Shown: positions 19,186-61,308 of the stretch, piece after piece | How positions within the stretch are numbered: the stretch's first letter is position 1 | How the letters are laid out: each line of letters begins with the position of its first letter | DNA from: Saccharopolyspora endophytica | GTDB lineage: Bacteria > Actinomycetota > Actinomycetes > Mycobacteriales > Pseudonocardiaceae | Assembly (NCBI RefSeq): GCF_018070075.1 | Contig: NZ_JAGPXE010000005.1 | Span: 186,001 to 250,000, forward strand | Direction: 5' to 3' | DNA length: 64,000 bases | Program-made: the position numbers and the translations under genes | Notes under the pieces: model-generated | What the model was told of the DNA's origin: nothing | The model's input: only the letters and a program-made list of their open reading frames with translations | Database searches by the model: none

Positions 19186-19350
19186 GAGCGTGGGAACCTT
19201 TCGCCCACAGCGGTGGCGAGCACGGGAACCTTTCGCGCGCCGCGGTGTGAGCACGGGAACCGCTCGTTCACCGCCGCAGCGAGCACGGGAACCTTTCGCT
19301 CACTTGGCGCGGACGCGAGGATGGGAACCTTTCTGCCACCTGCGGTCTCG
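19186..19350. repeat. Five tandem copies of the GGGAACCTT repeat
   Basis: Five direct repeat units of 31-36 bases start near 19186, 19219, 19250, 19282 and 19318. Four carry the exact core GGGAACCTT (19192, 19224, 19287, 19323); the third has GGGAACCGC. Units share GAGCACGGGAACCTTTCGC and diverge downstream. They fill the space between the His-rich gene and sodN. The non-repeated parts are too short for CRISPR spacers. Confidence 0.85.
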
Positions 19351-19371
19351 GGCCGGGGGTGCGAAAAAGAA

Positions 19372-19403
19372 AACGCCGGCCAGCGTTTCCGCTGGCCGGC
19401 GTT
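19372..19403 (-). terminator. Intrinsic terminator of sodN
   Basis: A perfect 14-base stem (AACGCCGGCCAGCG with complement) and a four-base loop. In the sodN direction a TTTCTTTTTC tract follows. It lies 18 bases past the sodN stop and is a textbook Rho-independent terminator. Confidence 0.9.
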
Positions 19404-19421
19404 CTCGAAGGACGCTGGAGA

Positions 19422-19829
19422 TCAGCCCTTCTTGGTCTCCCAGAAGATCTTGTCGATCTCGGCGATGTAGTCCAGGAGCTCCTGGCCCTTCGCCGGGTCC
19501 ATCGAACCCTTGGTGCCGGTGGCGCCCGCGGCCTTGGTGGCCTTGTTGACCAGCTCGTGCAGCTGCGGGTACTTCTCGAAGTGCGGCGGCTTGAAGTAGT
19601 CGGTCCACAGCACCCACAGGTGGTGCTTGACCAACTCGGAGCGCTGCTCGGCGATCAGAATCGCGCGAGTGCGGAACTCCGGGTCCTCGTTGCCCTGGTA
19701 CTTCTCCTGGATCGCCTTGACCGACTCGGCTTCGATCCGCGCCTGCGCGGGGTCGTAAACGCCGCACGGCAGGTCGCAGTGCGCGGTCGCCTCCAGGCGG
19801 GGGCTGAGGATGCGCGACAGGAGTCGCAT
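19422..19829 (-). CDS. sodN: Nickel superoxide dismutase
   Basis: Converts superoxide to oxygen and hydrogen peroxide. The 135-residue precursor has a 16-residue propeptide (MRLLSRILSPRLEATA) and then the nickel hook HCDLPCGVYDP. Mature His17, Cys18 and Cys22 plus the backbone bind nickel after cleavage. The C-terminal four-helix-bundle region ends EIDKIFWETKKG. ATG is preceded by GGAGGAATC. The maturation protease gene sodX is divergent, 79 bases away. Confidence 0.96.
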   Translation of the reverse strand: MRLLSRILSPRLEATAHCDLPCGVYDPAQARIEAESVKAIQEKYQGNEDPEFRTRAILIAEQRSELVKHHLWVLWTDYFKPPHFEKYPQLHELVNKATKAAGATGTKGSMDPAKGQELLDYIAEIDKIFWETKKG

Positions 19830-19908
19830 GATTCCTCCCTGACAAGTGAGTGCTCCGACGAGGCCGACCCTACTCTTGAAGATCCTCGTCGTCCTACTGG
19901 AGGTGCCG

Positions 19909-20223
19909 GTGAAATCGCTCGGACCGTGGCCGTTGCGCAGGTTGCGGGTGCGCGGACCCTCGATGGTTCCCACACTTCGGGACCAGGACGTCGTGGTGTT
20001 CCGAACCGGCGACGTTGCCCGTGCGGGTGATGTCGTGCTGGTGCGGTGGGAACAACGTCCCCATCAGCTGTCGGTCAAGCGCGCCGTGCGCCGCGAGACC
20101 GCCGGCTGGCACGTGGAGGGCGACAACGGTTTCGGATCCACCGACTCCCGCGAGCTCGGCCCCGCGCAGGTGCTGGGCGTGGTGCGCTGGCGGCTGTGGC
20201 CGTCGCCCGGCCGCGTGCGCTGA
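19909..20223 (+). CDS. sodX: Nickel-type superoxide dismutase maturation protease
   Basis: S26-family (signal-peptidase-like) protease that removes the SodN propeptide. The 104-residue protein shows GPSMVPTL with catalytic Ser18, SVKRAV with catalytic Lys57, and the family motifs EGDNGFGSTDSRE. I chose GTG 19909 because GGAGG lies five bases upstream; starts further 5' would run into the sodN promoter. Divergent from sodN, so the two probably share a control region; no clear Nur box is visible. Confidence 0.9.
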   Translation: MKSLGPWPLRRLRVRGPSMVPTLRDQDVVVFRTGDVARAGDVVLVRWEQRPHQLSVKRAVRRETAGWHVEGDNGFGSTDSRELGPAQVLGVVRWRLWPSPGRVR

Positions 20224-20227
20224 GGAG

Positions 20228-20271
20228 GGGAACCTTCCTGCCACGCCCGACGGGATGGCAGGAAGGTTCCC
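20228..20271. terminator. Hairpin made of two inverted GGGAACCTT repeats
   Basis: GGGAACCTTCCTGCCA and its exact reverse complement form a 16-base stem with a 12-base loop. It starts four bases after sodX and ends four bases before the stop of the convergent epimerase gene, so it likely terminates both. Each arm is a copy of the dispersed repeat. Confidence 0.8.
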
Positions 20272-20275
20272 ACCC

Positions 20276-20887
20276 TCACTGCTCGGTGCGCAGCGACTCG
20301 TAGTGCGCCAGGCAGGTGTTGAAGTCGGGGAGCAGGCCGCTCTCGGCGGCTTCGGCGAGGGTCGGGGCTTCGCGGTCCTTTTCGGACAGGATCGCCGGGC
20401 CGCTGAGCTCGGTGTCCCAGGGCAGGCCGAGGTCCGGGTCCATCGGGTTGATGCCGTGCTCCCCGGAGGGGTTGTAGCCGGTGGAGCACAGGTAGGTCAT
20501 GACGGTGTTGTCGGTGAGGGCCAGGAACGCGTGCCCGAGCCCTTCGGCGACGTAGAGGGCGCGGTACTCGGTCGAGTCGAGGCGGATCGCCTCCCACTGG
20601 CCGAAGGTGGGGGAGCCGACGCGGATGTCGACGACCACGTCCAGCAGCGCGCCCTGCGGGCAGTAGACGTACTTGGCCTGGCCGGGCGGGGTGTCGGCGA
20701 AGTGCACGCCGCGGATGACGTCGCGGGCCGAGACGCTGTGGTTGGTCTGGGCCAGGTTCATCGCGTGGCCGGTGGCTTCGGTGAACGCCTTCTCCTGGAA
20801 CGGGGCCACGAACAGGCCGCGGTTGTCGGGGAAAGCCTTTGGGGTGAATTCGAACGCCCCGGTGATCTCAAGTCGACGTACCTGCAC
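20276..20887 (-). CDS. dTDP-4-dehydrorhamnose 3,5-epimerase family protein
   Basis: RmlC-type cupin that epimerises a dTDP-4-keto-6-deoxyhexose, used for rhamnose or other deoxysugars. The 203-residue protein shows FPDNRGLFV, the catalytic His62 in GVHFADTPPGQAKYV with Lys72, and LYVAEGLGHAF with the conserved Tyr. GTG 20887 gives a family-like N-terminus VQVRRLEITGAF. No other rhamnose genes are beside it, so it may serve a separate sugar cluster. The exact sugar is unknown. Confidence 0.82.
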   Translation of the reverse strand: MQVRRLEITGAFEFTPKAFPDNRGLFVAPFQEKAFTEATGHAMNLAQTNHSVSARDVIRGVHFADTPPGQAKYVYCPQGALLDVVVDIRVGSPTFGQWEAIRLDSTEYRALYVAEGLGHAFLALTDNTVMTYLCSTGYNPSGEHGINPMDPDLGLPWDTELSGPAILSEKDREAPTLAEAAESGLLPDFNTCLAHYESLRTEQ

Positions 20888-21375
20888 GAGTGCCGAGCCT
20901 AGGAGAGGCGTGATCGGGGTCGGTTCGGTGGGGCGGCGGTGACAAGAAGGTTCCCCCGCTCGATCGCATCGCGGAAAACCAGAGGTCGGCACACGCATTT
21001 TCCAAACAGTTTCGATTCAGATGGCAATACCGGACACTTGTACCGCATAACTGCGAAATGCAAACAGGACGGCCGTACTGCATCTCATCCTCGGAAAATA
21101 TGACGCTCGTACTGTCTCAATTCGTAAAATTCTCGCCTTTTTGCTGGTGAGGCGTGTGATCCCTGTCGCTGACATTGCTTCGAGGGGCTGGCACACTAAC
21201 CGCACCGCAGCGTCCGCCGAGCCGCTGTCCGAACAGGATGGCCGGTATCGGTATTTCGATAGACGTCTTCTTCACCGGTACGCCCGGGAAGCCGGCGTTG
21301 ACAGCGACCGATCGAGGTCGCATCCGCCCGGCTCGATAGTGCTCGGGCCGCAGGCATGGCAATAGGAGGGACGCC
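20888..21375. other. 488-base intergenic region with A+T-rich core
   Basis: Divergent control region of the epimerase and malic enzyme genes. It contains a copy of the dispersed repeat (core AAGGTTCCC at 20948). From about 20990 to 21150 it is markedly richer in A+T than its surroundings, for example GGAAAATATGACGC and TTCGTAAAATTCTCGCC. Short open frames there have no recognisable product. The A+T-rich core may be a promoter or nucleoid-protein region, or a decayed insertion. Confidence 0.45.
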
Positions 21376-22575: not shown

Positions 22576-22629
22576 TCAACAAACCCTGTCGCGGGCCGGT
22601 GGGTCGGCGGTAGGTTCTACACCGGCGTC

Positions 22630-27440: not shown

Positions 27441-28523
27441 TTGATCGAGTTCCAGTCCGTCCGTAAGCAGTACCCGAACGGCACCGTCGCCGTGGAGGAG
27501 CTCAGCCTGTCCGTCGAGACGGGAACCATCACCGTGCTGGTCGGGCCTTCCGGCTGCGGCAAGACCACCCTCATGCGGATGGTCAACCGCATGATCGACC
27601 CCTCCTCGGGCACCGTCTCCGTCGACGGCACCGACGTGCGCGACCGCGACCCGGCGCAGCTGCGCCGCAACATCGGCTACGTCATCCAGCAGGCAGGGCT
27701 GTTCCCGCACCGAACCGTGCTGGACAACATCGCCACCGTCCCGATGCTGGCCGGGCAGACCCGCCGCGCCGCGCGCGAGCACTCCCGCGAGCTCCTCGAC
27801 CTCGTCGGCCTGCCCGCCGACCTCGGCAAGCGCTACCCGGCGCAGCTCTCCGGCGGTCAGCAGCAACGAGTCGGAGTGGCCCGAGCGCTGGCCGCCGACC
27901 CGCCCGTGCTGTTGATGGACGAACCCTTCAGCGCCGTCGACCCGGTCGTCCGCGAAGGCCTCCAGGACGAGCTGCTGCGCCTGCAGGACGAGCTGGACAA
28001 GACCGTCCTGTTCGTCACCCACGACATCGACGAGGCCATCAAGCTCGGCGAGAAGGTCGCCGTCCTGCGCCAAGGCGGACACCTCGCCCAGTACGCGCAG
28101 CCCGACGACCTGCTGGCCTCACCGGCCGACGACTTCGTGACGTCCTTCGTCGGCCGCGACCGCGGCTACCGCCGGCTGTCCTTCGTGGACTCCGCGCGCC
28201 TGCGGCCGAAGCCAGTCCCGACGGTCCGGTTGGGAGAAAAGGTCCCAGCCACCGACCAGTGGCGGCTGGCGGTGGATGAAGGTGACCGTCCGCGCGGCTG
28301 GCTGCCCCCGGGCACCGGCTCCGACGGCGACCTCGCCGAGCACACCCTCGTGGCCGGCGGCTCGCTGCACGTCGAGCAGGGGAACCTTCGTGGCGCCCTG
28401 GACGCCGCGCTGTCCGCACCGTCCGGGCTGGGCGTCGTCGTCAACGCCGACGGCGGCGCGGTCGGCGTCGTCACGGCCGACGACGTGCTGTCGCTGCTGG
28501 ACGACCACCGGGCGGCGACGTGA
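27441..28523 (+). CDS. Quaternary-amine-type ABC importer ATP-binding protein (OpuCA/ProV-like)
   Basis: ATPase of a glycine betaine/choline/histidine-type importer. The 360-residue protein has Walker A GPSGCGKT (35-42), signature LSGGQ (136-140) and Walker B LLMDEP (157-162). A C-terminal extension holds one CBS-like unit (GALDAALSAPSGLGVVV). TTG 27441 follows GAGAGGGGGG. The stop overlaps the permease start (GTGA), so the four genes form one operon. A copy of the dispersed repeat lies in frame at 28380. Confidence 0.87.
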   Translation: MIEFQSVRKQYPNGTVAVEELSLSVETGTITVLVGPSGCGKTTLMRMVNRMIDPSSGTVSVDGTDVRDRDPAQLRRNIGYVIQQAGLFPHRTVLDNIATVPMLAGQTRRAAREHSRELLDLVGLPADLGKRYPAQLSGGQQQRVGVARALAADPPVLLMDEPFSAVDPVVREGLQDELLRLQDELDKTVLFVTHDIDEAIKLGEKVAVLRQGGHLAQYAQPDDLLASPADDFVTSFVGRDRGYRRLSFVDSARLRPKPVPTVRLGEKVPATDQWRLAVDEGDRPRGWLPPGTGSDGDLAEHTLVAGGSLHVEQGNLRGALDAALSAPSGLGVVVNADGGAVGVVTADDVLSLLDDHRAAT

Positions 28524-33142: not shown

Positions 33143-34785
33143 CCGACGTGCGCGCCCCACGCGGCACGACGCTGACCGCCCGCAGCTGGAGCACCGAGGC
33201 ACCGCTGCGGATGCTGCAGAACAACCTCGACCCCGACGTCGCCGAACGCCCGCAGGACCTCGTCGTCTACGGCGGAACCGGCAAGGCCGCCCGCAACTGG
33301 GCCTGCTACCAGGCAATCGTGCGCGAACTGACCACGCTCGGCCAGGACGAGACGCTGCTCGTGCAGTCCGGAAAGCCCGTCGGCGTGCTGCGAACCCACG
33401 AGTGGGCGCCGCGCGTGCTCATCGCCAACTCCAACCTCGTGGGCGACTGGGCGAACTGGTCGGAGTTCCGGCGCCTCGACGACCTGGGCCTGATGATGTA
33501 CGGCCAGATGACCGCCGGGTCCTGGATCTACATCGGCACGCAAGGGATCCTCCAAGGCACCTACGAGACGTTCGGGGCCATCGCCACCAAGCGCTTCGGC
33601 GGAACCCTCGCCGGAACGCTCACCATCACCGCCGGACTCGGCGGCATGGGCGGAGCGCAGCCGCTCGCGGTCACCATGAACGAAGGCGTCGCGCTGGTCG
33701 TGGAGTGCGACCCGGAACGCGCCCACCGCCGCACCCGCCAGGGCTACCTCGACGAGGTCGCCGAATCCCTCGACGAAGCCATCGACAAGGCCGTCGCCGC
33801 CAAGCGGGACCGCCGCGCCTACTCGGTGGCCGTCATCGGCAACGCGGCGCAGCTGCTCCCCGAGATGCTGCGGCGCGGTGTGCCTGCGGACATCGTCACC
33901 GACCAGACCTCGGCGCACGACCCGCTGTCGTACCTCCCGGTGGACGTGGACCTGTCGGACTGGGCCGACTACGCGGCCCGCAAACCCGACGAGTTCACCA
34001 CCCGCGCGCGGGAATCGATGGCCCAGCACGTCGAAGCGATGGTGGGATTCCTCGACGCGGGCGCCGAGGTCTTCGACTACGGCAACTCGCTGCGCGGCGA
34101 AGCCCAGCTCGCCGGGTACGACCGGGCCTTCGCCTACCCGGGGTTCGTCCCCGCCTACATCCGCCCCCTGTTCTGCGAAGGAAAAGGTCCCTTCCGCTGG
34201 GCGGCGCTGTCCGGCGACCCCGCCGACATCGCCAAGACCGACAAGGCCGTGCTGGAGCTCTTCGGCGACGACGAGCACCTCGCCCGCTGGCTCCGGTTGG
34301 CTGACAGGAAGGTTCCCTTCCACGGCCTTCCCGCCCGCATCTGCTGGCTCGGCTACGGCGAGCGCGCCGCCGCCGGCCTGCGGTTCAACGAGATGGTCGC
34401 TTCCGGTGAGCTCGCCGCACCCGTGGTCCTCGGTCGCGACCACCTCGACTGCGGATCGGTCGCCTCCCCCTACCGCGAAACCGAGGCGATGGCCGACTCC
34501 TCCGACGCGGTCGCCGACTGGCCGCTGCTCAACGCCCTGGTCAACACCGCCTCCGGCGCGACGTGGGTATCGCTGCACCACGGCGGCGGCGTCGGCATGG
34601 GACGTTCCCTGCACGCCGGCCAGGTCACGGTCGCCGACGGCACCGAACTCGCCGCCCAGAAGCTGCAGCGGGTGCTCACCAACGACCCGGGCATGGGAGT
34701 GATCCGGCACGTCGACGCCGGGTACGAACGCGCCGACGAGGTCGCCGCCGAGCGCGGCGTGCGGACCCCGCTGGTGAGCCGATGA
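33139..34785 (+). CDS. hutU: Urocanate hydratase
   Basis: Hydrates urocanate to imidazolonepropionate using tightly bound NAD+. The 548-residue length matches the family. Seen are [10 protein letters not shown], the NAD-binding [13 protein letters not shown] near residues 165-177, the conserved cysteine in [27 protein letters not shown] and HHGGGVGMG. Overlaps hutH and the next gene by four bases each. Two copies of the dispersed motif (34309 exact, 34184 variant) lie inside the frame without disrupting it. Confidence 0.95.
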
Positions 34786-35966
34786 GCGGGCTGAACGCCC
34801 TCGCCGGGATCGGCGCGGACCAGCGGCGCGGCGGCTACTCGCGGCACGTCTTCGACGACGCCGAGCGGCACCTGCGCGAGTGGTTCGTCGAGCAGGCCGA
34901 GAACCGCGGGCTCGCGGTGGAAACCGATGCCAACACCAACATCTGGGCCTGGTGGGGAAAGCCGGGGCCGGGCGCGGTCGTCACCGGCAGCCACCTCGAC
35001 TCGGTGCCCGGCGGCGGGGCCTTCGACGGCCCCCTCGGCGTGGTCAGCGCGCTCGAAGCGGTGGACCTCCTGCGGGAACGCGGCTTTCAGCCGCGCACAC
35101 CGCTGGCCGTGGTCGTCTTCGCCGAGGAGGAAGGCGGCCGCTTCGGCGTGCCCTGCCTCGGGTCCAGGCTGATGACGGGAACCATCCACCCGGATCACGC
35201 CCGCACCCTGCGCGACCCCGACGGACGCACCCTCGCCGAAGCGATGCGCTCCTTCGGCGCGGACCCCGCACTCATCAGCCGGGACGAGACCGCTCTCGCG
35301 CGCATCGGGACCTTCGTGGAACTGCACGTCGAACAGGGCAAGGGCCTGATCGACCTGGATCGTCCCGTCGCGGTCGCCGATTCGATCCTCGGGCACGGCA
35401 GGTGGCGGTTCCGCTTCAGCGGTCAGGGGAACCACGCGGGCGCCACGCTCATCGATGACCGGAAAGATCCCATGCTCCCCGCAGCGCAACTCGTCCTCGC
35501 CGCCCGCCGCACGGCGGCCGCGACACCCGACGGTCGCGCGACGGTCGGCAGGCTCGTGCCCACCCCGGGTGGCACGAACGTCATCGCCTCGACCGTGGAC
35601 GTCCACCTCGACGCGCGCGCTCCCAGCGGGGCGCGATCGATGGTCGACGACATCGCAGGGCAGGCAAGGGAATTCGCAGCGCAGGAAGGGTGCCAGGTGG
35701 AGGTCGTCGAAGAATCCTTCGGCGACACCGTCCACTTCGACCCGGCGCTGCGCGACCGGCTGCGCGGCGTCCTCGACGACGTCCCGGTCCTGCCCACCGG
35801 CGCCGGCCACGACGCGGGCGTGCTCGCAGCGGAGAAGCCGACCGCGATGCTGTTCGTGCGCAACCCGACCGGCATCAGCCACGCCCCCGAAGAGCACGCG
35901 ACCGCCGAGGACTGCGAGGAAGGTTCCCATGCTCTCGCCCGCGTCCTCGCAGACCTGGCGGGGTGA
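34782..35966 (+). CDS. M20-family amidase (allantoate amidohydrolase-like), probable N-formylglutamate deformylase
   Basis: A 394-residue M20 metallopeptidase. Metal-site motifs are [29 protein letters not shown] and [11 protein letters not shown]; the lid-domain motif is [14 protein letters not shown]. By sequence it resembles allantoate amidohydrolase or N-carbamoyl amino acid hydrolase. It lies in frame-overlap between hutU and hutF, and the operon has no hutG, so it most likely hydrolyses N-formyl-L-glutamate to glutamate and formate. That role is inferred from pathway context. ATG overlaps the hutU stop. Confidence 0.82.
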
Positions 35967-38435: not shown

Positions 38436-38477
38436 GGCCACCTCGGCGCGGTGCTCGCCTTGACACCTTCCGGTCGT

Positions 38478-38501
38478 GAGCATGGGAACCTTCCTGTCAA
38501 C
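38478..38501 (+). repeat. Dispersed repeat copy after hutI
   Basis: GTGAGCATGGGAACCTT followed by CCTGTCA, about 45 bases past the hutI stop. It matches the full consensus of the dispersed repeat on the plus strand. A TTGACA at 38459 can pair with its TGTCAA end. Confidence 0.8.
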
Positions 38502-41675: not shown

Positions 41676-41775
41676 CGCTTCCTCCTAGTGCTCCGTCGAT
41701 CTTCGACGCGGTGTGGTTGGGAACAGCAGGGTACGAAACGGCCCTCCACCACAAGCGATGCGCCCCGGTCGAAGT

Positions 41776-41800
41776 GAGCGGAAGGTTCCCGTGCACACTC
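41776..41800 (-). repeat. Dispersed repeat copy between DUF6104-type gene and kgd
   Basis: GAGCGGAAGGTTCCC followed by GTGCACAC; core at 41782-41790. It lies downstream of kgd, past the kgd terminator. Confidence 0.7.
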
Positions 41801-45559: not shown

Positions 45560-46091
45560 GGCTGGCGTTCGCCTCGATCCATATGCTCGTGATTTACAGA
45601 CACACTCGGGTACCAGGCTAGCCGCCCGATTCGCGAGGTTGACACACAGGACGGCCGTTCGGCCGATCGACTCTCATCACAGAATCGATCAGGATCCTCA
45701 GGCCAGCGGGGATGTCTCCCCGTCCGGGCCATCCGACCGAACATCAACCGCCCCCGGTGTGCTTCGTTCGCTGATCAGCGCCGCTTGGCACTAGTCCATA
45801 CGGGTTGTCGTACCCGTTCATTATGGCGTTTCACCGACACGCTGTGTTCTCAACTGGTAGCCGGATCCGCTCGCATCGCGGGATCGGCCCCGCGCGGTCA
45901 GCCTCGGCGCCCGTTTTGCCTGGTCGGCGACGCCTGCGAGCGCCCGTTCGGCTTCGTTGCGTGCACGTGTCGACACGGGGCGTGGTGATCGTGACAGAAA
46001 AGTTCCCTTCCTCACACCCGGCAGCGACCTCGCGATGGCATGGGCGACACGTTCCCACCGGGTGGAGGAGGTGAGAGGAAGGATCCCTTCC
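45560..46091. other. 532-base intergenic region with two variant repeat copies
   Basis: The kgd promoter must lie in the first part. The last part, just 3' of the ABC exporter gene (minus strand), holds two variants of the dispersed repeat. The copy at 45991-46015 reads GTGACAGAAAAGTTCCC then TTCCTCAC. The copy from 46070 runs a few bases past the gap and is nearly palindromic, GTGAGAGGAAGGATCCC then TTCCTCAC. I see no gene. Confidence 0.6.
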
Positions 46092-49000
46092 TCACGCGAT
46101 GTTGCTCGTCTCCGCGGCGTCGTCCACCGTGCCGCCGTGGGCGTCGGCCGCCCGCCACAGCCGGGCGTAATACCCGCGGCGGGCCAGCAGCTCCTCGTGC
46201 CCGCCCTGCTCGACGATGCGCCCGCCGTCGACCACCACGATCCGGTCCGCGCGAGCCGCCGTGCCCAACCGGTGCGCGACGACGAACGTGGTGCGCTGCG
46301 CGGCGAGCCGATCGCTGGCGGCCACCACCATCGACTCCGTCGCCGGATCCAGCGCTGCCGTGGCCTCGTCCAGCAGCAGCACGTCGGGGTCGACGAGCTG
46401 AGCCCGAGCCAGCGCGACCAGCTGGCGTTGGCCGGCCGACAGCCCCCGGCCGCGCTCACCGACCTCCTGCCGGAAGCCGTGCGGCAGCATCGAGATCCCA
46501 GGAAGGGCTCCCACCGCGCGGGCGGCGGCCTCCACCTCCGCCGGCCGGGCGTCGGGACGGGCGTAGGTGATGTTGTCGGCGACGTCGCCGGTGAACAGGT
46601 GCCCTTCCTGCGGCACCACCGCCAGCCTCTGGTGGAACGCCGCCAGGTCGTAGCCGCGCACGTCCGTCCCATCGACCAGCACCGCGCCCTCGGAGACGTC
46701 GTAGAACCGGGCGATCAGCTTGATCAAGGTCGACTTGCCCGCACCCGTGGCACCCACCAGCGCCACCGTCTCGCCGGGCCGCACCCGCAGGTTCACCTCC
46801 CGCAGCGCGTACTGCTCGGTGCCGGGGTAGCGGAACGACACCGCCCGCAATTCCACCTCGCCGCGGAACCGCTCGGGCGCCTCCACCGGCTCGGCGGCAG
46901 CGGGCACCGACGTCGGCGTGCGCAGCAGATCGCCGATGCGCTGCAAACCCACCCGGGCCTGCTGATACCCGTCGAAGACGCCGGACAACTGCTGCACGGG
47001 TGAGAAGAACAGGCCCAGGTACAGCAGGAAAGCGACCAGCACCCCGGCCGTCAGCTCGCCCGAAGCGACCCGCGCAGCGCCGACACCCAGCACGGCCGCC
47101 TGCGCGATCTCCGACAGCAGCGCCACGAACGGGAAGTAGGTGGCGATGTAGCGCTGCGCGCGCAGGCGCGAACGCCGGTAGGCGTCGCTGCGCTGCGCGA
47201 ACACCTTCGCCGCGTGCCCCTCGCGGCGGTGCGCCTGGGCCACCCGCATGCCCGAGACGTTCTCCTGCAGATCGGCGTTGACGGTGCTGACCCGCTCCCG
47301 CGCCTCGGCGTAGGCGGTGGAGGAGACCCTGCGGAAGATGATCGTGGCGACCACCAGGACGGGCAGCACCGCCATCGCCACCAGCGCCAGCGACGGGTCG
47401 GTGATCAGCAGGGCTCCGGCGATGCCCAGCAGCGTCAGCACGCTGACCACGAACGTCGCCAGGCCCGTCTGCAGGAACGTCGACAGCGCGTCGACGTCGG
47501 TGGTCATGCGGGTCATGATCCGCCCGGCCAGCTCCCGCTCGTAGAAGTCCAGCCCGAGCCGCTGCAGGTGCGCGAAGCTGCGCAGCCGCAGCACGTACAG
47601 CAGGGTTTCGCCGGTGCGGGCGGTGATCACCGTCTGCAGCTTGATCACCAGCCACCCGCCGGCGACCAGCAGCCCCGCCAGCCCCGTGGCCAGCCACAAC
47701 GTGTTGAGGCTCGCCGTTCCGACGCCGCTGTCGATGCCGTGCCGCACCAGCGACGGCAGCAGCACCGAGGTCAGCGCGTCCCCGGCGACCAGGGCGATCG
47801 TCAACAGCAGCCCCCACCGGATCGGCCGGAGCAGCCGAGCCAGCCGGAACTCCGGGTCCGGGGCGGTGGGATCGGTTCCCCTCACCTCGGGCAGGTCGCG
47901 GGTCGGCGGCAGATCGCGGATTCCCTCCACCAGTTCCGGTGTGGGGGGAGTCGACGTGGTGCTCATGCCGTGGCGGCCCGCGGAGGTCACCACGGGGCCT
48001 TCGACCGACCGCTCGGGCGGCTGCTCCTGCGGCCACAGGTCCGGGGTGATGCCGTCGGGGGAGACCTCGGCGTGCTCGTCGCGCGGGTCATCGATCGTTT
48101 CCCCCGGCCCCGCCAGCAGCGAGCGGAACAGCTCGCACCGCTCCCGCAGCTCGGCCTCGGTGCCGACGTCCACGACGCGCCCTTCGTCGAGCACGGCGAT
48201 CCGGTCGGCCAGCGCCAGCGTCGAGCGGCGGTGCGCGATCAGCAGCGTGGTGCGCTGCGCGGTGACCGAACGCAGCGTGTCGTGAATGGCGGCTTCCGTC
48301 GCCGGATCGACGGCCGAGGTCGCGTCGTCGAGCACCAGCACCCGGGGGTTGGACAGCAGCGCCCTCGCCAGCGCCACGCGTTGGCGCTGCCCCCCGGAGA
48401 GCGTCAGCCCGCGTTCGCCGACCGCGGTGTCGTAGCCATCGGGCAGGCCGGTGATGAACTCGTGGGCCTCCGCGCCCTTGGCGGCGGCGATCACGTCGTC
48501 GTCGGTCGCGTCGGAACGCCCGTAGGCGATGTTGCCGCGAATGGTGTCGGAGAACAGGAACGCTTCCTCGAAGACCACGCCGACCGCGCTGCGCAGCGAA
48601 TCCAGCCGCAGGTCGCGGATGTCGAAGGTCTCGTCATTGTCGGTGGAGCCGATCGCGATGCGCCCCGAGTGGACGTCGTAGAACCGGGGGAGCAGCAGCG
48701 ACACCGTCGACTTGCCCGACCCCGCCGGGCCCACCAGCGCGACCGTCTCGCCCGGGCTGACGCGCAAGGTCGCCTCCTGGAGCACCGGCTGGTCCCGGGT
48801 GTAGCCGAAACCGACCTCGTCCAGCCGGACCTCCAGCGGGCCCTCGGGCAGCGAGCGGGCGTCCGGCTTCTCCTCGACGTCGGGCTGCGAGTCGGTGAGC
48901 TCGTGGATGCGCTCCACCCCGGCCCGCGCCAGCTGGGCCTGGATCATGACGCTGGAGAGCATCCGGGCCGGTCCGGACAGCATCGCCACGTAGCCGGCGA

Positions 49001-49859
49001 ATGCGACGAAGGTTCCCAAGCTCACCTGGCCCTGGAACACCAGCCAGCCGCCCAGACCCAGCACACCCACCTGACCGGCGGCGGGAAGCGTCGCCAGGCT
49101 CGCCGCGGGAAGGGACGTCATCCGAGCCGCGCGCAGCCGCTCGGCGAACAGCCGCCGCGCCCGCGACTCCAGCCGGCCGACCTCGCGCTCCTCCTGGCCG
49201 AAGCCCTTCACCACGCGGACACCGGTGACGGTCTCCTCGACGTGCTGGGCGATGTCGGCCGCGCGCTGCTGTGCCGACCAGGTGGCGGGGAACAGCTTCT
49301 TCTTGCTGCGCGCGGTGACCACGGCGATCAGCGGCGCCACGATGAGAGCCACGACGGTCAGCAGCGGCGACAGCCACAGCATCGCTGCGATCGCGAACAC
49401 CGCCAGCACCGCTGTTCCGGCCGCCAGGGGAAGCATCGACAGCAGCGAATGCACGAGCTGCAGGTCGCTGATGGAACGCGACACCACCTGTCCGGTGCGC
49501 AACGCGTCCTGCTTGCCGCCGTCGAGGCGCTGCATGGCGGCGAACACCGCCCGCCGCAGGTCGTGCTGCACGTCCAGCGCCAGCCGGCCCGCGCTGTAGC
49601 GGCGGACGAAGGCGGCGGCGAACCGGAACACGCCCAGCACCAGCAGCACGATCACGATCCACCACAGCCGCTCGGTGCTGCGCGCCACGGCGTCGTCGAC
49701 CGCGAGCTTGGTCAGCAGCGGAACCAGCGCCTCCAACCCCACCGCGGTCACGGAGGCGCCCATCGCCAACACCAGTGCGACCGGGTGGCGCCGACAAGCG
49801 GCGAAGAGGCGACGGATCCAGCCGCCGGAGGAAGGGCGGGGATTCTCGGAGTCGCTCAC
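46092..49859 (-). CDS. Fused heterodimer-type ABC exporter (two TMD-NBD halves)
   Basis: A 1255-residue exporter with order TMD1 (about 25-320), NBD1 (about 340-590), a linker rich in Pro and charged residues (about 600-690), TMD2 (about 700-990) and NBD2 (about 1000-1245). NBD1: Walker A GPAGSGKST, signature LSGGQRQR, Walker B ending LVLDDATSAVD with Asp in place of the catalytic Glu. NBD2: GATGAGKST, degenerate signature LSAGQRQL, intact LLLDEATAALD. So one ATP site is canonical and one degenerate, as in heterodimeric exporters, but both halves are in one chain. Probably exports lipids or drugs; mycobacterial relatives (Rv1272c/Rv1273c) are separate proteins. Confidence 0.9.
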   Translation of the reverse strand: MSDSENPRPSSGGWIRRLFAACRRHPVALVLAMGASVTAVGLEALVPLLTKLAVDDAVARSTERLWWIVIVLLVLGVFRFAAAFVRRYSAGRLALDVQHDLRRAVFAAMQRLDGGKQDALRTGQVVSRSISDLQLVHSLLSMLPLAAGTAVLAVFAIAAMLWLSPLLTVVALIVAPLIAVVTARSKKKLFPATWSAQQRAADIAQHVEETVTGVRVVKGFGQEEREVGRLESRARRLFAERLRAARMTSLPAASLATLPAAGQVGVLGLGGWLVFQGQVSLGTFVAFAGYVAMLSGPARMLSSVMIQAQLARAGVERIHELTDSQPDVEEKPDARSLPEGPLEVRLDEVGFGYTRDQPVLQEATLRVSPGETVALVGPAGSGKSTVSLLLPRFYDVHSGRIAIGSTDNDETFDIRDLRLDSLRSAVGVVFEEAFLFSDTIRGNIAYGRSDATDDDVIAAAKGAEAHEFITGLPDGYDTAVGERGLTLSGGQRQRVALARALLSNPRVLVLDDATSAVDPATEAAIHDTLRSVTAQRTTLLIAHRRSTLALADRIAVLDEGRVVDVGTEAELRERCELFRSLLAGPGETIDDPRDEHAEVSPDGITPDLWPQEQPPERSVEGPVVTSAGRHGMSTTSTPPTPELVEGIRDLPPTRDLPEVRGTDPTAPDPEFRLARLLRPIRWGLLLTIALVAGDALTSVLLPSLVRHGIDSGVGTASLNTLWLATGLAGLLVAGGWLVIKLQTVITARTGETLLYVLRLRSFAHLQRLGLDFYERELAGRIMTRMTTDVDALSTFLQTGLATFVVSVLTLLGIAGALLITDPSLALVAMAVLPVLVVATIIFRRVSSTAYAEARERVSTVNADLQENVSGMRVAQAHRREGHAAKVFAQRSDAYRRSRLRAQRYIATYFPFVALLSEIAQAAVLGVGAARVASGELTAGVLVAFLLYLGLFFSPVQQLSGVFDGYQQARVGLQRIGDLLRTPTSVPAAAEPVEAPERFRGEVELRAVSFRYPGTEQYALREVNLRVRPGETVALVGATGAGKSTLIKLIARFYDVSEGAVLVDGTDVRGYDLAAFHQRLAVVPQEGHLFTGDVADNITYARPDARPAEVEAAARAVGALPGISMLPHGFRQEVGERGRGLSAGQRQLVALARAQLVDPDVLLLDEATAALDPATESMVVAASDRLAAQRTTFVVAHRLGTAARADRIVVVDGGRIVEQGGHEELLARRGYYARLWRAADAHGGTVDDAAETSNIA

Positions 49860-49929
49860 CCCGCCAGGTTAGGCCTCGGCACCGACGGTGCAGCACCGCC
49901 GATCCTGCGGTGTGACCGGCGCCAACGGG

Positions 49930-49998
49930 TGAGGAAGGGAACCTTCCTGCCATTTCGGTCGACGCGGCGCCCGGGTGGCAGAAAGGTTCCCCTCCTCA
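49930..49998. terminator. Hairpin of two inverted repeat copies after the ABC-2 permease gene
   Basis: GGGAACCTTCCTGCCA (49937-49952) and TGGCAGAAAGGTTCCC (49976-49991) pair with one mismatch. Both arms match the dispersed repeat, including the GTGAGG...CCTCAC ends. It lies immediately 3' of the permease gene on the minus strand. Confidence 0.75.
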
Positions 49999-50850
49999 CG
50001 CCACGTCGCGCCGCGCGCCCACGAACCAGCCGCCGGCGACGAACACCGCGGTGTAGCCGAGGAACGTCAGCAGGCTGGCCCACCACGGGTGCCCGTAGCT
50101 GCCGCCGAAGAACAGGTGCAGGAGTTCGAACGCGGTCCGCGGTGTGTTCGGTTCGTTCGGTCCCGCCACCGCGGAGACGAACAGCGGCACCGCCAGGTTG
50201 GACACGATGCCGTTGCCCGCTGAGCCCGGCAGGTAGGGCTCGATCCCGGACACGGGGGTGTCCAGCAGGCTGAACGACAGGATGAACTCGACCACGAACT
50301 TGTAGACCAGCGGCAGGATGACCACCAGCACGGCGTTGGCGATCAGCGCGCCGAAACCGACCCCGAGCAGCGTCCACAGCAGCATCGACAGCACGCCCGC
50401 TCCACCGACGCTGAGCCAGCTGCTGAACCCGCCGAAGTTGCTCATGTCGTGCCCGGCGCCGAGCAGGGCGCCGAGGCTGGCGAACAGCACGTTCGCGAGC
50501 CCGTAGAGCACTCCGATGCCCGCGCAGGCGATCAACTTCGCCCACAGCACGGAGCTGCGCGGGTTGGCGGTGAGGTACGTCGTGGTGATGGTCTTGGCGC
50601 GGAACTCGCTGGCGAAGGTCATCGCGCCGAACAGCAGCGCGAAGATCGTGCCGAAGTTCGTCGACAGCGCCACCGACAGCAGGCCCAGCGGGAGCGACGC
50701 GCTGAACTCCTCGACCATGTCGATGATCCCGCCGAACGCGGTGCCCAACCAACCGGCGGCGAACCCCAGCACGACCACGGGGATCAGCAGCCCCCACCAC
50801 AGGCTGGTGGTGACGATCTTCCGGTACTCGGCCTTGATCAGCCCGATCAT
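49996..50850 (-). CDS. ABC-2 type transporter permease
   Basis: A 284-residue membrane protein with about six helices. It starts MIGLIKAEYRKIVTTSLWW, typical of ABC-2 permeases, with a large extracytoplasmic loop before the last helix (PWWASLLTFLGYTAVFVAGG). Its ATG overlaps the upstream ATPase gene by four bases, so the two are co-transcribed and form one exporter. Substrate unknown. Confidence 0.85.
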   Translation of the reverse strand: MIGLIKAEYRKIVTTSLWWGLLIPVVVLGFAAGWLGTAFGGIIDMVEEFSASLPLGLLSVALSTNFGTIFALLFGAMTFASEFRAKTITTTYLTANPRSSVLWAKLIACAGIGVLYGLANVLFASLGALLGAGHDMSNFGGFSSWLSVGGAGVLSMLLWTLLGVGFGALIANAVLVVILPLVYKFVVEFILSFSLLDTPVSGIEPYLPGSAGNGIVSNLAVPLFVSAVAGPNEPNTPRTAFELLHLFFGGSYGHPWWASLLTFLGYTAVFVAGGWFVGARRDVA

Positions 50851-52896: not shown

Positions 52897-52961
52897 GTGC
52901 GCAGGGGAACCTTCCTGTCACAGCGGAGCGGGCGGACTGCGAGGAAGGGAACCTTCCGCGC
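52897..52961 (+). repeat. Two direct copies of the dispersed repeat 3' of ald
   Basis: Cores GGGAACCTT at 52905 and 52947. The first reads GCGCAGGGGAACCTT then CCTGTCAC; the second sits in the palindrome GGAAGGGAACCTTCC. Both are within 100 bases downstream of the ald stop. Confidence 0.8.
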
Positions 52962-52992
52962 AACCCGCCCGCTCGCCAGGTGCCGAGAGACC

Positions 52993-54224: not shown

Positions 54225-54266
54225 CGCGGGCAGGGCAGAAGTGACAGAACGGTTCCCATGCCCGCG
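54225..54266 (-). terminator. Hairpin with a variant repeat 3' of the PucR-type gene
   Basis: CGCGGGCA (54225-54232) pairs with TGCCCGCG (54259-54266). The loop carries a variant of the dispersed repeat, GTGACAGAACGGTTCCC. It lies 14 bases past the regulator stop on the minus strand. Confidence 0.6.
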
Positions 54267-55833: not shown

Positions 55834-55952
55834 CGAAGGGTCCTCCTCGACCAAGGACGTGCCGGCGGAGATCACATGTCCATTGACAGTCTCGCTGGCC
55901 CGTTTATCGTTGCTGAGCAAGCCGACAATCGCATACCGGCCATCGACCCCGT

Positions 55953-56133
55953 GCGGGAGAGACCCTGCCAGCAGCGCAGGGCGCCGAAGGAGCAACACTC
56001 CCCAGCAAACTCTCAGGCACCCATGACCGCTCGGGCGAGGCAACTCTGGAAAGCGTCCGTCGTCACCGACGGGCCACCCACGGTGCAAGCCGCTCGCGCG
56101 GCGAAGCTCTCAGGTTCCGCAACAGAGGGGGAG
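55953..56133 (+). ncRNA. Tandem glycine riboswitch
   Basis: Two consecutive glycine aptamers. The first runs from GCGGGAGAGACC through GCGCCGAAGGAGCAA to CTCTCAGGCACCCATGACC. The second has CAACTCTGGAAAGCG, the GGTGCAAGCC core and CTCTCAGGTTCCG, ending ACAGAGGGGG. All conserved blocks of the class are visible. It lies 55 bases before gcvH and should switch on gcvH-sdaA when glycine is abundant. Confidence 0.93.
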
Positions 56134-56188
56134 GCCCAGCCGAAACCGGGGACAGACGTCCCTTCGAAACAGCTATGGAGCCTCCCTC

Positions 56189-57947: not shown

Positions 57948-57954
57948 GCGGCGG

Positions 57955-57994
57955 CCCGAGGTGAGGATGGGAACCTTCCTGTCACCGCCTCGGG
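57955..57994 (+). terminator. Hairpin with repeat copy 3' of sdaA
   Basis: CCCGAGGTGA pairs with TCACCGCCTCGGG (small bulge). The apical part is a full dispersed repeat, GTGAGGATGGGAACCTT then CCTGTCAC. It starts eight bases past the sdaA stop. Confidence 0.7.
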
Positions 57995-58069
57995 TCGCTT
58001 CGCTGCGCTGACCTGCGGAATCCGAAACCTCCTGCGATCGGCGGGGGGGGATACTTGCGCACCATTGGG

Positions 58070-58098
58070 TTGTGCACAACTGAATTGTGCACTACTGT
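58070..58098 (+). promoter_or_regulatory. OhrR operator and promoter of ohrR-ohr
   Basis: TGCACAA-CTGAA-TTGTGCA (58073-58091) is a perfect 7-base inverted repeat. Its centre ACAACTGAATTGT differs at one position from the Bacillus-type OhrR site ACAATTnAATTGT. It overlaps a promoter TTGTGC-N17-TACTGT (58070-58098). The -10 is seven bases before the ohrR GTG, so the transcript may be leaderless and autoregulated. Confidence 0.72.
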
Positions 58099-58105
58099 TC
58101 TTCTC

Positions 58106-58579: not shown

Positions 58580-58992
58580 CAGTTCTCTACACGGCGGAGG
58601 CCACCGCTACCGGCGAAGGTCGCAGCGGACGCACCCGCACCTCGGACGGCTTGGTCGACCTCGAACTGGCCATCCCCAAGGAGATGGGCGGCCCCGGCGG
58701 CGCCACCAACCCCGAGCAGCTGTTCGCGGCCGGTTATTCCGCCTGCTTCCACAGCGCACTCCAGCTGGTCGCCCGCAAGCAGAAGGTCGACATCGAAGGC
58801 TCCACGGTCACCGCCGAGGTCGGGATCGGCCCGAACGGCGACGGAGGCTTCGCCCTCAACGTCGCTCTCCTCGTCGAACTGCCCGGCGTGCCCGAAGAGC
58901 AGGCTCAGCAGCTCGCCGAAGCCGCGGACGCGGTGTGCCCGTACTCCAACGCGGTGCGCGGCAACATCGCCCTGGAAGTCCGCGTCGCCTAG
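58576..58992 (+). CDS. ohr: Organic hydroperoxide resistance peroxidase
   Basis: Reduces organic hydroperoxides with lipoyl-protein electrons. The 138-residue protein has the two catalytic cysteines, Cys57 (GYSACFHSA) and Cys121 (VCPYSNAVRGN), in the Ohr/OsmC fold, plus TNPEQLFAAGY. Translationally coupled to ohrR. Its 3' end overlaps the next (minus-strand) gene by four bases. Confidence 0.94.
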   Translation: MTVLYTAEATATGEGRSGRTRTSDGLVDLELAIPKEMGGPGGATNPEQLFAAGYSACFHSALQLVARKQKVDIEGSTVTAEVGIGPNGDGGFALNVALLVELPGVPEEQAQQLAEAADAVCPYSNAVRGNIALEVRVA

Positions 58993-59315
58993 GCGAACAG
59001 GACGTACACCGCGCCGGTCGCCCCGGCGAGCATCGCCAGCACCGCTGTCGCGGCGGGCAAAGCCCCGCCCGGCAGCGGTGCTTTCGCGCGCAGGCGCCGA
59101 TCGCTGCGGTGATGGCGCCGCCACACCAGCCACGCCACCACCCCGCTGGTCGGCAACGTCGCCAGCGCGCAGACGACCGCGGCCATCGCGCTGTGGTGCG
59201 AGATCAACTTGAGCAGCACCAGCAGGCTCACGGTGAACGCCAACGCCGTGCGCAACCAGGCGAGGGTCGTGCGCTCGATCTGCAACCCCGGATCCCAGGG
59301 CTGGTGCTCAGCCAT
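58989..59315 (-). CDS. DUF202 membrane protein
   Basis: 108-residue protein with the DUF202 signature ERTTLAWLRTALAF and about three helices (LAFTVSLLVLLKLI, AAVVCALATLPTSGVVAWLV, TAVLAMLAGATGAVYVLF). Function unknown. The upstream gene in the same direction, one base away, is a second DUF202 member; the pair may form a membrane heteromer. Confidence 0.8.
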   Translation of the reverse strand: MAEHQPWDPGLQIERTTLAWLRTALAFTVSLLVLLKLISHHSAMAAVVCALATLPTSGVVAWLVWRRHHRSDRRLRAKAPLPGGALPAATAVLAMLAGATGAVYVLFA

Positions 59316-59316
59316 C

Positions 59317-59709
59317 TCAGAACCCGGTCACGAACAGCAGCACGCAGGCCGCCACACCGATCACGCCCAACCCGTAGCCCAGCACAGGAGCCAGGCGCGG
59401 AGCCGGCAGCGGCTTGCCCCGGCGCAGAGCCCGTTCGGTGGCCACCCACCTGGTGAAAGCCGTACCGCTGCACAGAACCCCGGCCAGCAGCAACGCGACC
59501 GCCAGCACCGTGCGGATGTCGCTGGGCTCAGCGGCCACGGCGTTGAGCGCCTCAACACCGACACCACCGGCCATCAGCGCCAACGCGGTGCGGATCCACG
59601 CCAGGAACGTCCGCTCGTTGGCGAGCGTGAACCGGGGGTCGGGCTCGTCGCCCTCCTCGTAGAGCCGTCGCGGCCAGCGCGCGCTCTCGCCTTCGCCATC
59701 GGTCGCCAT
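59317..59709 (-). CDS. DUF202 membrane protein (YidH-like)
   Basis: 130-residue protein with NERTFLAWIRTALALMAGGVGVEAL, the YidH/DUF202 signature, and three helices. First gene of the two-gene DUF202 unit. Function unknown; the charged N-terminus (WPRRLYEEGDEPDPRF) is typical. Confidence 0.82.
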   Translation of the reverse strand: MATDGEGESARWPRRLYEEGDEPDPRFTLANERTFLAWIRTALALMAGGVGVEALNAVAAEPSDIRTVLAVALLLAGVLCSGTAFTRWVATERALRRGKPLPAPRLAPVLGYGLGVIGVAACVLLFVTGF

Positions 59710-59940
59710 GACCTCACGTTATCTCGTCCGAACGGCGCAACCAGAGCCAGTGCCCTGCGGGAATGATGGGGCGCACATCACGTCCCGGTCGATCCAGTGC
59801 GTGGGAAAAGGGCTGGACGTTTCCCCGACGACCGGAGATCGTTGGCGTGGACCTCAGCGCCGCGCGTCCCGCCCGAATGCATCGAGGTTCCCCTCGACCA
59901 CTCGGGCGGTCGACGCCCGCGAGCGAAAACTGGAGGTCGG

Positions 59941-61242
59941 ATGGCCGTCGGAGTCGCGCACCCCGACAAGTCCACGGTGCGCAAGGCGGCCTTCGCCAGC
60001 GCGGTCGGCAACACCATCGAGCTCTACGACTTCCTGATCTACGGCACCGCGGCCGGCCTGGTGTTCAACAAGCTGTTCTTCCCCTCCGGTGATCCGTGGG
60101 TGGGGGCGCTGCTGGCGTTCGCGACCTTCGGCGCGGGATTCCTGGCCCGCCCGCTCGGCGCGGCGGTGATCGGTCACTTCGGCGACCTCGTCGGCCGCAA
60201 GCTCATGCTGGTCATCACCCTCAGCGTCACCGGCGTGTGCACGGCCGCGATCGGCCTGCTGCCCACCTACCAGCAGGTCGGCGTGTGGGCTCCGGCGATG
60301 TTGGTGGCGCTGCGACTCGTCCAGGGGTTCTTCCTCGGCGGTGAGCAGGGCGGCGCCGTGCTGATGGCCGTCGAACACGCACCCGCCCACCGGCACGGGT
60401 GGTACGGCGGGTGGACCTTCATCGGCTCCCCGACCGGCATGTTCCTCGCCACCGGCGCATTCGCCGCCGCCACCGCGATCTCCGGCGAGCAGTTCCTGGA
60501 GTGGGGGTGGAGGGTGCCGTTCCTGCTGAGCCTGGTGCTGGTCGGCGTCGGCCTCTACGTCCGGCTGCGCCTGGCCGAAAGCCCCGAGTTCGCCGCCATC
60601 CGGCAGCGCGGCGAGCGCGCACGACTGCCCGTCGCCGAAGCGTTCGCCACCGCCTGGCGGCAGATCCTGCTCGCCGCAGGCGTGAACCTCGGGTTCAACG
60701 CGTTCATCTTCATCATGACCACGTTCCTGCTGACCTACGGCACCGAGAAGGTCGGAGTCACCAGGGACGTGATGCTGCTGGGCAGCCTCGCCGGTTCGGC
60801 CGCCCAGATCGCCGGAATCCTGCTGTTCTCGCACCTGTCGGACCGGCTCGGCCGCACGCAGGTGATGCTCGGCGGGGGAACCTTCCTCGCGGCGTTCGCC
60901 TTCCCGCTGTTCTGGCTCATCGACACCGGCAGCCCGGCGCTGATCGTGCTCGCGATGATCGTGGGGTACGGCGGCGCGGCCGCGGTGTTCGGGCCGATGG
61001 CGGCCTTCTGCGCGGAACTGTTCCCCACCAGGGTTCGCTACACCGGTGTGTCGCTGGGCTACCAGAGCGGATCGGTTCTCGGCGGCGGCTTGTCGCCCGT
61101 GGTGGCCACCGCGCTGCTGACCGGTTCCGGCGGGCAGTCCTGGCCCATCTCGGCGTACCTGGTCTTCGGCGCGGCGATCACCATCGTCTGCCTGGCCCTC
61201 ACCGGTGAACCGACCCGCTGGTCCCGCCGCGACGAGAAGTGA
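59941..61242 (+). CDS. MHS-family (metabolite:H+ symporter) MFS transporter
   Basis: 433-residue, 12-helix permease. Signatures: SAVGNTIELYDFLIYGTAAG, RPLGAAVIGHFGDLVGRK (MFS loop 2-3) and RLVQGFFLGGEQGGAV. Similar to shikimate, alpha-ketoglutarate or proline/betaine carriers; substrate not determinable. ATG 59941 is chosen (GGAGG just upstream); an open frame extends 48 codons 5' without a membrane protein-like sequence. Confidence 0.88.
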   Translation: MAVGVAHPDKSTVRKAAFASAVGNTIELYDFLIYGTAAGLVFNKLFFPSGDPWVGALLAFATFGAGFLARPLGAAVIGHFGDLVGRKLMLVITLSVTGVCTAAIGLLPTYQQVGVWAPAMLVALRLVQGFFLGGEQGGAVLMAVEHAPAHRHGWYGGWTFIGSPTGMFLATGAFAAATAISGEQFLEWGWRVPFLLSLVLVGVGLYVRLRLAESPEFAAIRQRGERARLPVAEAFATAWRQILLAAGVNLGFNAFIFIMTTFLLTYGTEKVGVTRDVMLLGSLAGSAAQIAGILLFSHLSDRLGRTQVMLGGGTFLAAFAFPLFWLIDTGSPALIVLAMIVGYGGAAAVFGPMAAFCAELFPTRVRYTGVSLGYQSGSVLGGGLSPVVATALLTGSGGQSWPISAYLVFGAAITIVCLALTGEPTRWSRRDEK

Positions 61243-61250
61243 CCGCGGGC

Positions 61251-61308
61251 CGGTGAATACCCCGCGACGGCCGGGTTCACCGATGACAGGAAGGTTCCCA
61301 CGCTCGCG
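61251..61308. terminator. Hairpin and repeat copy between convergent genes
   Basis: CGGTGAA (61251-61257) pairs with TTCACCG (61276-61282) just after the MHS gene. It is followed by a repeat copy TGACAGGAAGGTTCCC (61284-61299), which ends shortly before the stop of the convergent AMP-binding gene. Confidence 0.6.

Follow-up and report, generated by a model that had tools for sequence, protein, structure and literature searches.

A 64-kb stretch of the Saccharopolyspora endophytica chromosome (the window hereafter: positions 186,001 to 250,000 of contig 30 in a 7.17-Mb assembly of 34 contigs, G000) carries many copies of a short DNA motif with the 9-bp core AAGGTTCCC. These copies are part of a dense array of sites that is confined to one chromosomal domain across the genus, which is the key fact of this study and is not visible from the window alone. 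Comparison of the genome sequences suggests that the motif is probably a 26-bp site for a putative sequence-specific Saccharopolyspora DNA-binding protein that marks this domain on one chromosome arm. A broader proposal, for which we judge the chances to be about even, is that Saccharopolyspora has a chromosome-addressing system of its own, in which roughly 100 sites would jointly form a centromere- or macrodomain-like element placed laterally, on one arm, and be read by a lineage-specific protein; the site set would shift with a changed specificity, as in the congener G010, and decay on loss, as in G013. Only a few bacterial chromosome domains are so far recognized as carrying a repeated marker sequence of their own, and those compared here lie near oriC, at the terminus (Ter), or are spread chromosome-wide. 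If the proposal is true, a dense, genus-conserved array on one arm would provide a handle on arm organization or anchoring in these hyphal, antibiotic-producing bacteria.

The starting point was an earlier note on the window, which counted 21 exact copies of AAGGTTCCC or its complement where fewer than one was expected. All 21 are present, as compared to a mean of 0.15 and a maximum of 1 in 100 dinucleotide shuffles of the window, although the strand labels of the note were inverted ("plus" sites match AAGGTTCCC on the minus strand, and vice versa) and its coordinate 20948 should be 20947. Alignment of the copies shows that AAGGTTCCC is the core of a 26-bp motif with a consensus of approximately GGTGACAGGAAGGTTCCCATSCTCAC, and that the information spans about 26 bp and drops sharply on both flanks. 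The consensus is approximately GGTGRSMGRAAGGTTCCCNTSCTCRC in G000 and GGTGACAGGAAGGTTCCCATSCTCAC in the congener G020, where it is far less variable. A 26-bp weight matrix identifies 25 window sites of at least 22 bits, which include 20 of the 21 exact cores and five sites without an exact core (26-mers starting at 19247, 35454, 45990, 46070 and 54240). The remaining exact core, at 60876 in the coding sequence (CDS) of an MHS transporter, scores just 15.4 bits, has poor flanks, and is probably a chance match. As for the imperfect dyad that had been described, GTGA/TCAC ends and a GGAA/TTCC centre do exist, but the outer and inner dyads are centred differently, and a single site is therefore not a true palindrome.

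Confinement is most clearly seen in genomes assembled into long contigs. In G020, a single contig of 5.78 Mb, all 66 exact 15-mers lie within 190 kb; the corresponding figures are 60 of 61 within 231 kb of a 9.4-Mb contig in G006 and 15 of 15 within 178 kb in S. rosea, and those among the matches listed of the 106 in G014 all lie within 288 kb. Scored with the weight matrix, G020 has 90 sites between 1,589,789 and 1,791,191, all of at least 22 bits, with no other match of at least 14 bits in the surrounding 400 kb (1.48-1.88 Mb), and a Markov null for the region gives no matches even at 8 bits. No domain motif of at least 8 bits occurs in the 200 kb around the G020 origin (600-800 kb, with parS) or in 200 kb at the antipode. 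A de novo 10-mer method recovers DnaA-box- and parS-like words in the 200 kb at that origin, and when 240 kb and 60 kb around rho in two other genera were searched with 10-mers, no comparable array emerged.

A genome-wide count gave 111 matches to AAGGTTCCC in G000, as compared to 15 for the reversed control. Among the 100 of these 111 that were listed, contig 30 holds 72 (149.8-387.2 kb) and contig 4 another 10 (164.5-263.8 kb), with the other 18 outside these two stretches. Synteny with G020 indicates that the two contigs adjoin at their ends, so that both groups of sites form one segment of about 350 kb. On contig 30, a subcluster at the left edge (149.8-151.2 kb) has several GGAAAGTTCCC or GGAAAGCTCCC cores, and a site-free stretch from 169.5 to 205.2 kb covers the first 19 kb of the window. 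The reported absence of copies before 19.19 kb thus holds within the window but does not mark the edge of the domain, since sites of at least 22 bits lie to the left of the window, at 149,836-169,506 of the contig. In the three most fully scanned genomes, a domain of 200-350 kb holds about 90-100 sites.

Where it could be placed, the domain lies about 1 Mb from the origin region, on one side. The origin region was located by parS and the ParB helix-turn-helix (HTH) at 702 kb in G020 and 6.50 Mb in G006, and by parS at 2.71 Mb in G014, and the domain lies at 1.59-1.79, 7.59-7.82 and, among the matches listed, 3.86-4.14 Mb, respectively. The array is thus 0.89-1.09 Mb (G020), 1.09-1.32 Mb (G006) and, among the matches listed, 1.15-1.43 Mb (G014) from parS, on one side of it in each case. 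An origin element of the parS type was rejected as an explanation, parS being a separate motif and the array lying about 1 Mb away. As a separate observation, G010 (4.2 Mb, 92% complete) has no parS and no match to the ParB HTH, so that either the origin region is missing from the assembly or the system has been lost. In all eight motif-rich genomes examined (G000, G001, G004, G006, G010, G014, G018 and G020), rho shares a contig with the listed motif places and has such places on either side of it. By our reading of protein N-termini, the domain also encodes kgd/sucA, alanine dehydrogenase, thr genes, the atp operon and murA, and is made up of core genes rather than an island; the presence of rho and, by the same reading, of the atp operon and murA makes it relevant to strain engineers who edit this region. 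A DivIVA-family coiled-coil protein (PF05103) is encoded within the G020 domain.

The sites are conserved in place between species. Orthologous gaps between genes of the domain that are occupied in G020 are also occupied in G000 in 17 of 17 cases, whereas only 5 of the 32 other gaps are occupied in G000 alone (p=4e-9). The same test against G020 gave 14 of 14 shared gaps and 2 of 23 occupied only in the second genome for G006, 12 of 14 and 2 of 20 for G018, and 5 of 7 and 3 of 19 for G010 (p=0.014); the species that share gap occupancy are 77-88% identical in protein. Across six species, the motif stands out as the main island of conservation in the gap at G020 1,733,009, apart from the gene ends. 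Six coding copies (in hutU, an amidohydrolase gene, hutF, the MHS gene, and genes for an ATP-binding cassette (ABC) importer ATPase and an ABC exporter) were aligned codon by codon to between two and four orthologues each. None of them arose as an inserted motif in these alignments, in agreement with the earlier description of in-frame copies. The copies differ by substitution, with hutF two codons shorter in G020 but equal in length in two other orthologues, and the ABC exporter site differs from the G020, G018 and G006 sequences solely by synonymous changes. A conserved island in diverged intergenic DNA, shared gaps, substitution-only coding copies and the lack of orientation relative to genes together support the earlier suggestion that selection acts on the motif at the level of DNA.

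The motif is a property of the genus. When genomes of 84,980 species were searched with a 21-bp form, 90 stretches matched, of which 88 are from Saccharopolyspora (15 species) and the other two are single matches in metagenome bins of other bacteria; S. erythraea is not among the titles of the 90 stretches. The longer form AAGGTTCCCNNNCTCAC had no match in one genome from each of 19 other genera. A phage origin was rejected, as viral contigs contain no exact match to the 21-bp form. The 15-bp form GRCAGGAARGTTCCC is found in 21 of 22 genomes of the genus (that of the window included), with at least 23 copies in 20 of them, seven in G019 and none in G013, and its reversed control is absent from all 22. 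Conservation in related genomes, a check proposed at the outset, is seen both in the presence of the motif and in the occupancy of the same orthologous gaps.

Two species have altered or lost their sites. In a phylogeny built from 31 concatenated proteins, with two other genera as the root, G019 is basal, followed by G010, G000, and then G006, G018 and the pair G020 and G013. In G010, 39 of 41 one-mismatch matches read GACAGGAAAGTTCCC and none GACAGGAAGGTTCCC, and most of the GACAGGAAAGTTCCC matches are held by 16 inverted pairs. In G013, the sister of G020 (90% identity), the 15-bp form is absent, the part of the domain examined has one related site, and two pairs have changed in sequence while keeping their complementarity. 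One pair on G013 contig 127 (1569-1604) occupies the same gap as a G020 pair and no longer carries the motif, yet its arms are still complementary and could pair as a hairpin (GGGAACCTCCCC..GGGGAGGTTCCC); it looks as if a terminator-like role there outlived the site. The specificity of the reader protein may have changed in G013, rather than the reader having been lost. A site-less sister species and a species with uniformly altered sites constitute natural experiments for the reader protein and its co-evolution with the sites.

Placement relative to genes was examined in 10 segments of five genomes, in which 406 of 410 sites could be placed by our own gene calls; these are open reading frame (ORF) picks ranked by conservation, with errors in both directions, such that some of the 50 sites assigned to coding sequence are intergenic and the site at 35454 is the reverse case. 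By these calls, 356 of the 406 sites are intergenic, with 216 in tandem, 87 in convergent and 53 in divergent gaps, corresponding to densities of 2.1, 3.2 and 1.2 sites per kb, as compared to 0.06 per kb in coding sequence. Within tandem gaps, 161 of 216 sites are closer to the upstream stop (median 73.5 bp) than to the next start (median 147.5 bp), so that the reported placement of nearly all intergenic copies within 100 bases of a stop codon stands only as a tendency. Orientation relative to the genes shows no preference in these gaps (114 same, 102 opposite). The sites are also spaced and paired in preferred ways. Among 117 direct neighbours no more than 150 bp apart, the distribution of distances has its peak at 41-42 bp; other groups lie near 31, 46-48 and 53 bp, and a 10.5-bp period is significant against a jitter null (p=0.0002). 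Facing pairs are overwhelmingly 5'-facing (65, versus 6 that are 3'-facing), and 48 of the 65 lie at 26-29 bp.

Repeats that land behind genes and often form inverted pairs call to mind the REP/BIME class, that is, palindromic repeats multiplied by a transposase or by gene conversion and spreading locally. The preference for intergenic 3' regions is as expected of such repeats, as are the near-identity of copies within a genome, the preferred 22-base spacer between the 7-mers of inverted pairs in G010, G019 and others, and the occurrence of G019 pairs away from the domain. We nevertheless regard this origin as unlikely. Similarity stops sharply at about 26 bp, the six coding copies contain no motif insertion (a test that intergenic copies do not permit), gap occupancy is conserved between species that have diverged to 77-88% protein identity, and a restriction to one 200-kb segment is not expected from transposition.

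The bias toward 3' ends and the top density in convergent gaps are also what bidirectional transcription terminators or RNA-processing signals of the region would produce. The stems of G019 show weak covariation (p=0.005; 27 of 30 pairs, leaving out one duplicate and two whose inner arms differ), and the two changed G013 pairs stay complementary. The motif is asymmetric, however, and yet favours neither orientation relative to transcription (114:102). A hairpin can form at no more than 100 of the 410 sites, those in 50 close inverted pairs, and convergent gaps show no enrichment for such pairs (12 of 43 versus 63 of 270; p=0.56). By our own reading, the G020 pair downstream of rho comes after an apparent separate GC-rich hairpin. 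Terminators or processing signals would also leave the restriction to one domain unexplained, and we give them only a small chance. The earlier note had offered a protein site, a terminator or processing element, and a segregation signal side by side; the first and last are the better options, and termination or processing lacks support where copies are single or in tandem.

Conserved sites that are clustered and preferentially spaced also resemble the operators of a regional transcription regulator with a large clustered regulon. Divergent gaps, which contain promoters, have the lowest intergenic density, however, and stops are nearer to the sites than starts; moreover, the genes are, by our reading, mostly of unrelated core functions. 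A regulon is thus very unlikely. A signal for DNA transfer, uptake or motor guidance, similar to DUS/USS, KOPS or conjugative clt/TRS elements, is highly improbable: DUS/USS also occur as inverted pairs at 3' ends, and there is a weak strand bias away from the origin region (55:35 in G020, 57:35 in G006, 55:40 on synteny-oriented G000 contig 30, 62:44 in G014), but signals of these types are distributed genome-wide, while here no exact copy lies elsewhere on the chromosome in G020 or S. rosea and hardly any in G006, and the bias, at about 60:40 among sites that are shared by descent and not independent, is not the strong orientation bias of the KOPS or Tus-Ter type.

Asymmetric sites in both orientations, the avoidance of genes and promoters, the spacing and pairing, and the species-wide shift fit double-stranded binding sites for one protein, and confinement to a domain fits a positional rather than a metabolic role. 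In a marked-domain mechanism of this kind, a sequence-specific protein would bind the 26-bp sites, neighbouring sites would load the protein cooperatively, and the assembled complex would compact, tether or anchor the arm region, for example to the pole, the septum or the sister chromosome. The sites would lie mostly behind genes because extra bound protein does the least harm there.

Several observations weigh against the marked-domain reading or limit it. The spacing fits a period of 11-11.5 bp better than 10.5 bp, and the 46-48-bp group is outside helical phasing. The gap test against G020 has no signal in G013 (1 of 3 shared; 0 of 8) or G024 (0 of 1; 0 of 6). Outside the G020 domain there is one bare 9-mer core near 1.52 Mb, and five G020 matches of 8-14 bits are not assigned to positions. 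A small secondary cluster around serC and sepH lies away from the domain in G000, G001, G007 and G019, and in this cluster the gap adjoining the methyltransferase gene is occupied in both G000 and the basal G019; a 16-kb sepH stretch in G020 has no paired or motif-like core. The sites of G019 are mostly inverted pairs, and its 30 inverted-pair matches are found partly on contigs that map to the domain; three surround sepH, and others are on stretches that do not correspond to any part of G020 1.46-1.90 Mb. Confinement is therefore not absolute and may not be ancestral, and an ancestral set that was paired but sparser may have expanded into the present array. Furthermore, the array lies away from both the origin and the antipode.

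The binding protein was also not found among the candidates examined, namely a ParB-type paralogue, MatP, SepH and four proteins encoded in the domain. A Noc-like ParB paralogue was rejected, as none of nine genomes has a second ParB-type HTH (one PF17762 match per genome in eight, none in G010). MatP was rejected because PF06303 is absent from six of six genomes, with a positive E. coli control. SepH, considered for the secondary cluster around sepH, is weakened by the presence of sepH in 14 of 14 genomes including the site-less G013; SepH of Streptomyces venezuelae also showed no DNA binding by ChIP-seq, footprinting or electrophoretic mobility shift assay (PMC7968930). The domain-encoded DUF6319, TipAS-domain, TetR and 135-aa proteins have counterparts in G013, so that their absence cannot explain the loss of sites there.

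Table 1. Sites of the 26-bp domain motif in the window (window coordinates unless stated) and associated features.
Feature	Coordinates	Strand	Score or evidence
Motif site, first in a direct run of five (start-to-start distance 31-36 bp)	19184..19209	-	26.0 bits; exact core 19192-19200
Motif site	19216..19241	-	25.0 bits
Motif site, core GAGCGGTTCCC, not caught by the exact 9-mer	19247..19272	-	22.3 bits
Motif site	19279..19304	-	33.0 bits
Motif site	19315..19340	-	37.0 bits
Motif site, left half of hairpin-capable 5'-facing inverted pair	20220..20245	-	32.9 bits
Motif site, right half of inverted pair with 20220..20245	20254..20279	+	33.1 bits
Motif site, divergent gap (own gene calls)	20938..20963	+	27.7 bits
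Motif site in ABC importer ATPase CDS; substitutions, no indel versus 2 orthologues	28372..28397	-	23.2 bits; codon alignment
Motif site in hutU (urocanate hydratase); DR for GE and H for Q, no indel versus 3 orthologues	34300..34325	+	32.8 bits; codon alignment; TIGR01228
Motif site, core GGAAAGATCCC; called intergenic, yet within amidohydrolase ORF 34563-35966	35454..35479	+	30.1 bits
Motif site, 3' end of amidohydrolase CDS; only substitutions versus 3 orthologues	35911..35936	+	32.1 bits; codon alignment
Motif site in hutF; length equal to 2 of 3 orthologues; the G020 orthologue is two codons shorter	36604..36629	+	32.5 bits; codon alignment; TIGR02022
Motif site, downstream of hutI	38476..38501	-	37.3 bits; TIGR01224
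Motif site, convergent gap (own gene calls)	41773..41798	+	31.7 bits
Motif site, core GAAAAGTTCCC, not in the earlier list	45990..46015	+	36.7 bits
Motif site, core GGAAGGATCCC, not in the earlier list	46070..46095	+	34.6 bits
Motif site in ABC exporter CDS (gene on - strand); peptide VSLGTFVAF same in G020, G018 and G006	49000..49025	+	25.9 bits; codon alignment
Motif site, left half of wider inverted pair	49929..49954	-	36.1 bits
Motif site, right half of pair with 49929..49954	49974..49999	+	36.4 bits
Motif site, direct pair 42 bp apart	52897..52922	-	32.8 bits
Motif site, direct pair with 52897..52922	52939..52964	-	29.8 bits
Motif site, core GAACGGTTCCC	54240..54265	+	30.6 bits
Motif site, downstream of L-serine ammonia-lyase	57961..57986	-	39.9 bits; sda_mono TIGR00720
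Motif site, convergent gap downstream of MHS-type transporter	61282..61307	+	34.8 bits
Exact 9-mer core in MHS transporter CDS, poor flanks	60868..60893	-	15.4 bits; codon alignment
Tandem glycine riboswitch aptamers, a few hundred bases upstream of the L-serine ammonia-lyase gene	55944..56135	+	Rfam RF00504, two matches above gathering
Secondary cluster around serC/sepH	G000 contig 32, 339,206-345,952; also G001, G007 and G019 contig 23		

Other repeats were encountered in these genomes. The palindrome TCCACNGTGGA is over-represented in several of them, often within coding sequences (G013 contig 127, G022 contig 26, G020 3.5-3.7 Mb), and looks like an iterated palindrome; the window contains none. 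A second over-represented "motif" in the G020 flank was rejected, as it is a 33-bp tandem repeat containing GAGGAAACCCCGGCAGTGGCCCACCCACCGCGA (contig 1, 1,491,420-1,491,892; 15 matches 33 bp apart).

Searches of open-licence papers, mostly at the level of listings, found no description of the motif, nor of an actinobacterial array of this kind lying apart from oriC and Ter, and the papers listed for a search by motif letters all concern, by title, unrelated subjects. A paper on macro-regions of the S. erythraea chromosome concerns transcription and names no such motif in the parts consulted (PMC3610266).

Several known systems invite comparison. REP/BIME and DUS/USS elements are short repeats behind genes, often in inverted pairs, and in this they resemble the sites described here. 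They are distributed genome-wide and REP copies arise by insertion, whereas here the sites belong to one domain and the coding copies lack insertions. The sites of Noc (NBS) and SlmA (SBS) number in the tens, are sequence-specific and have an uneven chromosomal distribution (PMC4726725); they occur chromosome-wide and are under-represented at Ter, and the nine genomes searched here lack a second ParB-type HTH.

The closest working analogues are RefZ/RBM, MatP/matS and RacA/ram. The RBMs of Bacillus have a position relative to oriC that is conserved across the genus and provides positional information (PMC6657595). There are five RBMs, two per arm and one near oriC, in contrast to the 90-100 or so sites on one arm here. 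In E. coli, 23 matS sites of 13 bp are distributed over 800 kb (PMC3330122). Like the present array, matS is a site set confined to one domain, which it also structures, although here some species have a secondary cluster. Sites of matS are shorter, 10-15 times less dense and located at Ter, and no MatP is found in the six genomes searched; here, the array lies 0.9-1.4 Mb from parS (G020, G006 and G014) and is absent from 200 kb at the G020 antipode, which tends to speak against a position at the terminus. In Bacillus subtilis, ram sites occur mainly in a 250-kb region to the left of oriC (PMC4949633). RacA is sporulation-specific and ram lies near oriC, whereas here the array is about 1 Mb away and of another motif. 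RacA is recruited to the pole by DivIVA, and the likeness to RacA/ram lies in a one-sided array of many sites, as seen in G020, in G006 and, among the matches listed, in G014.

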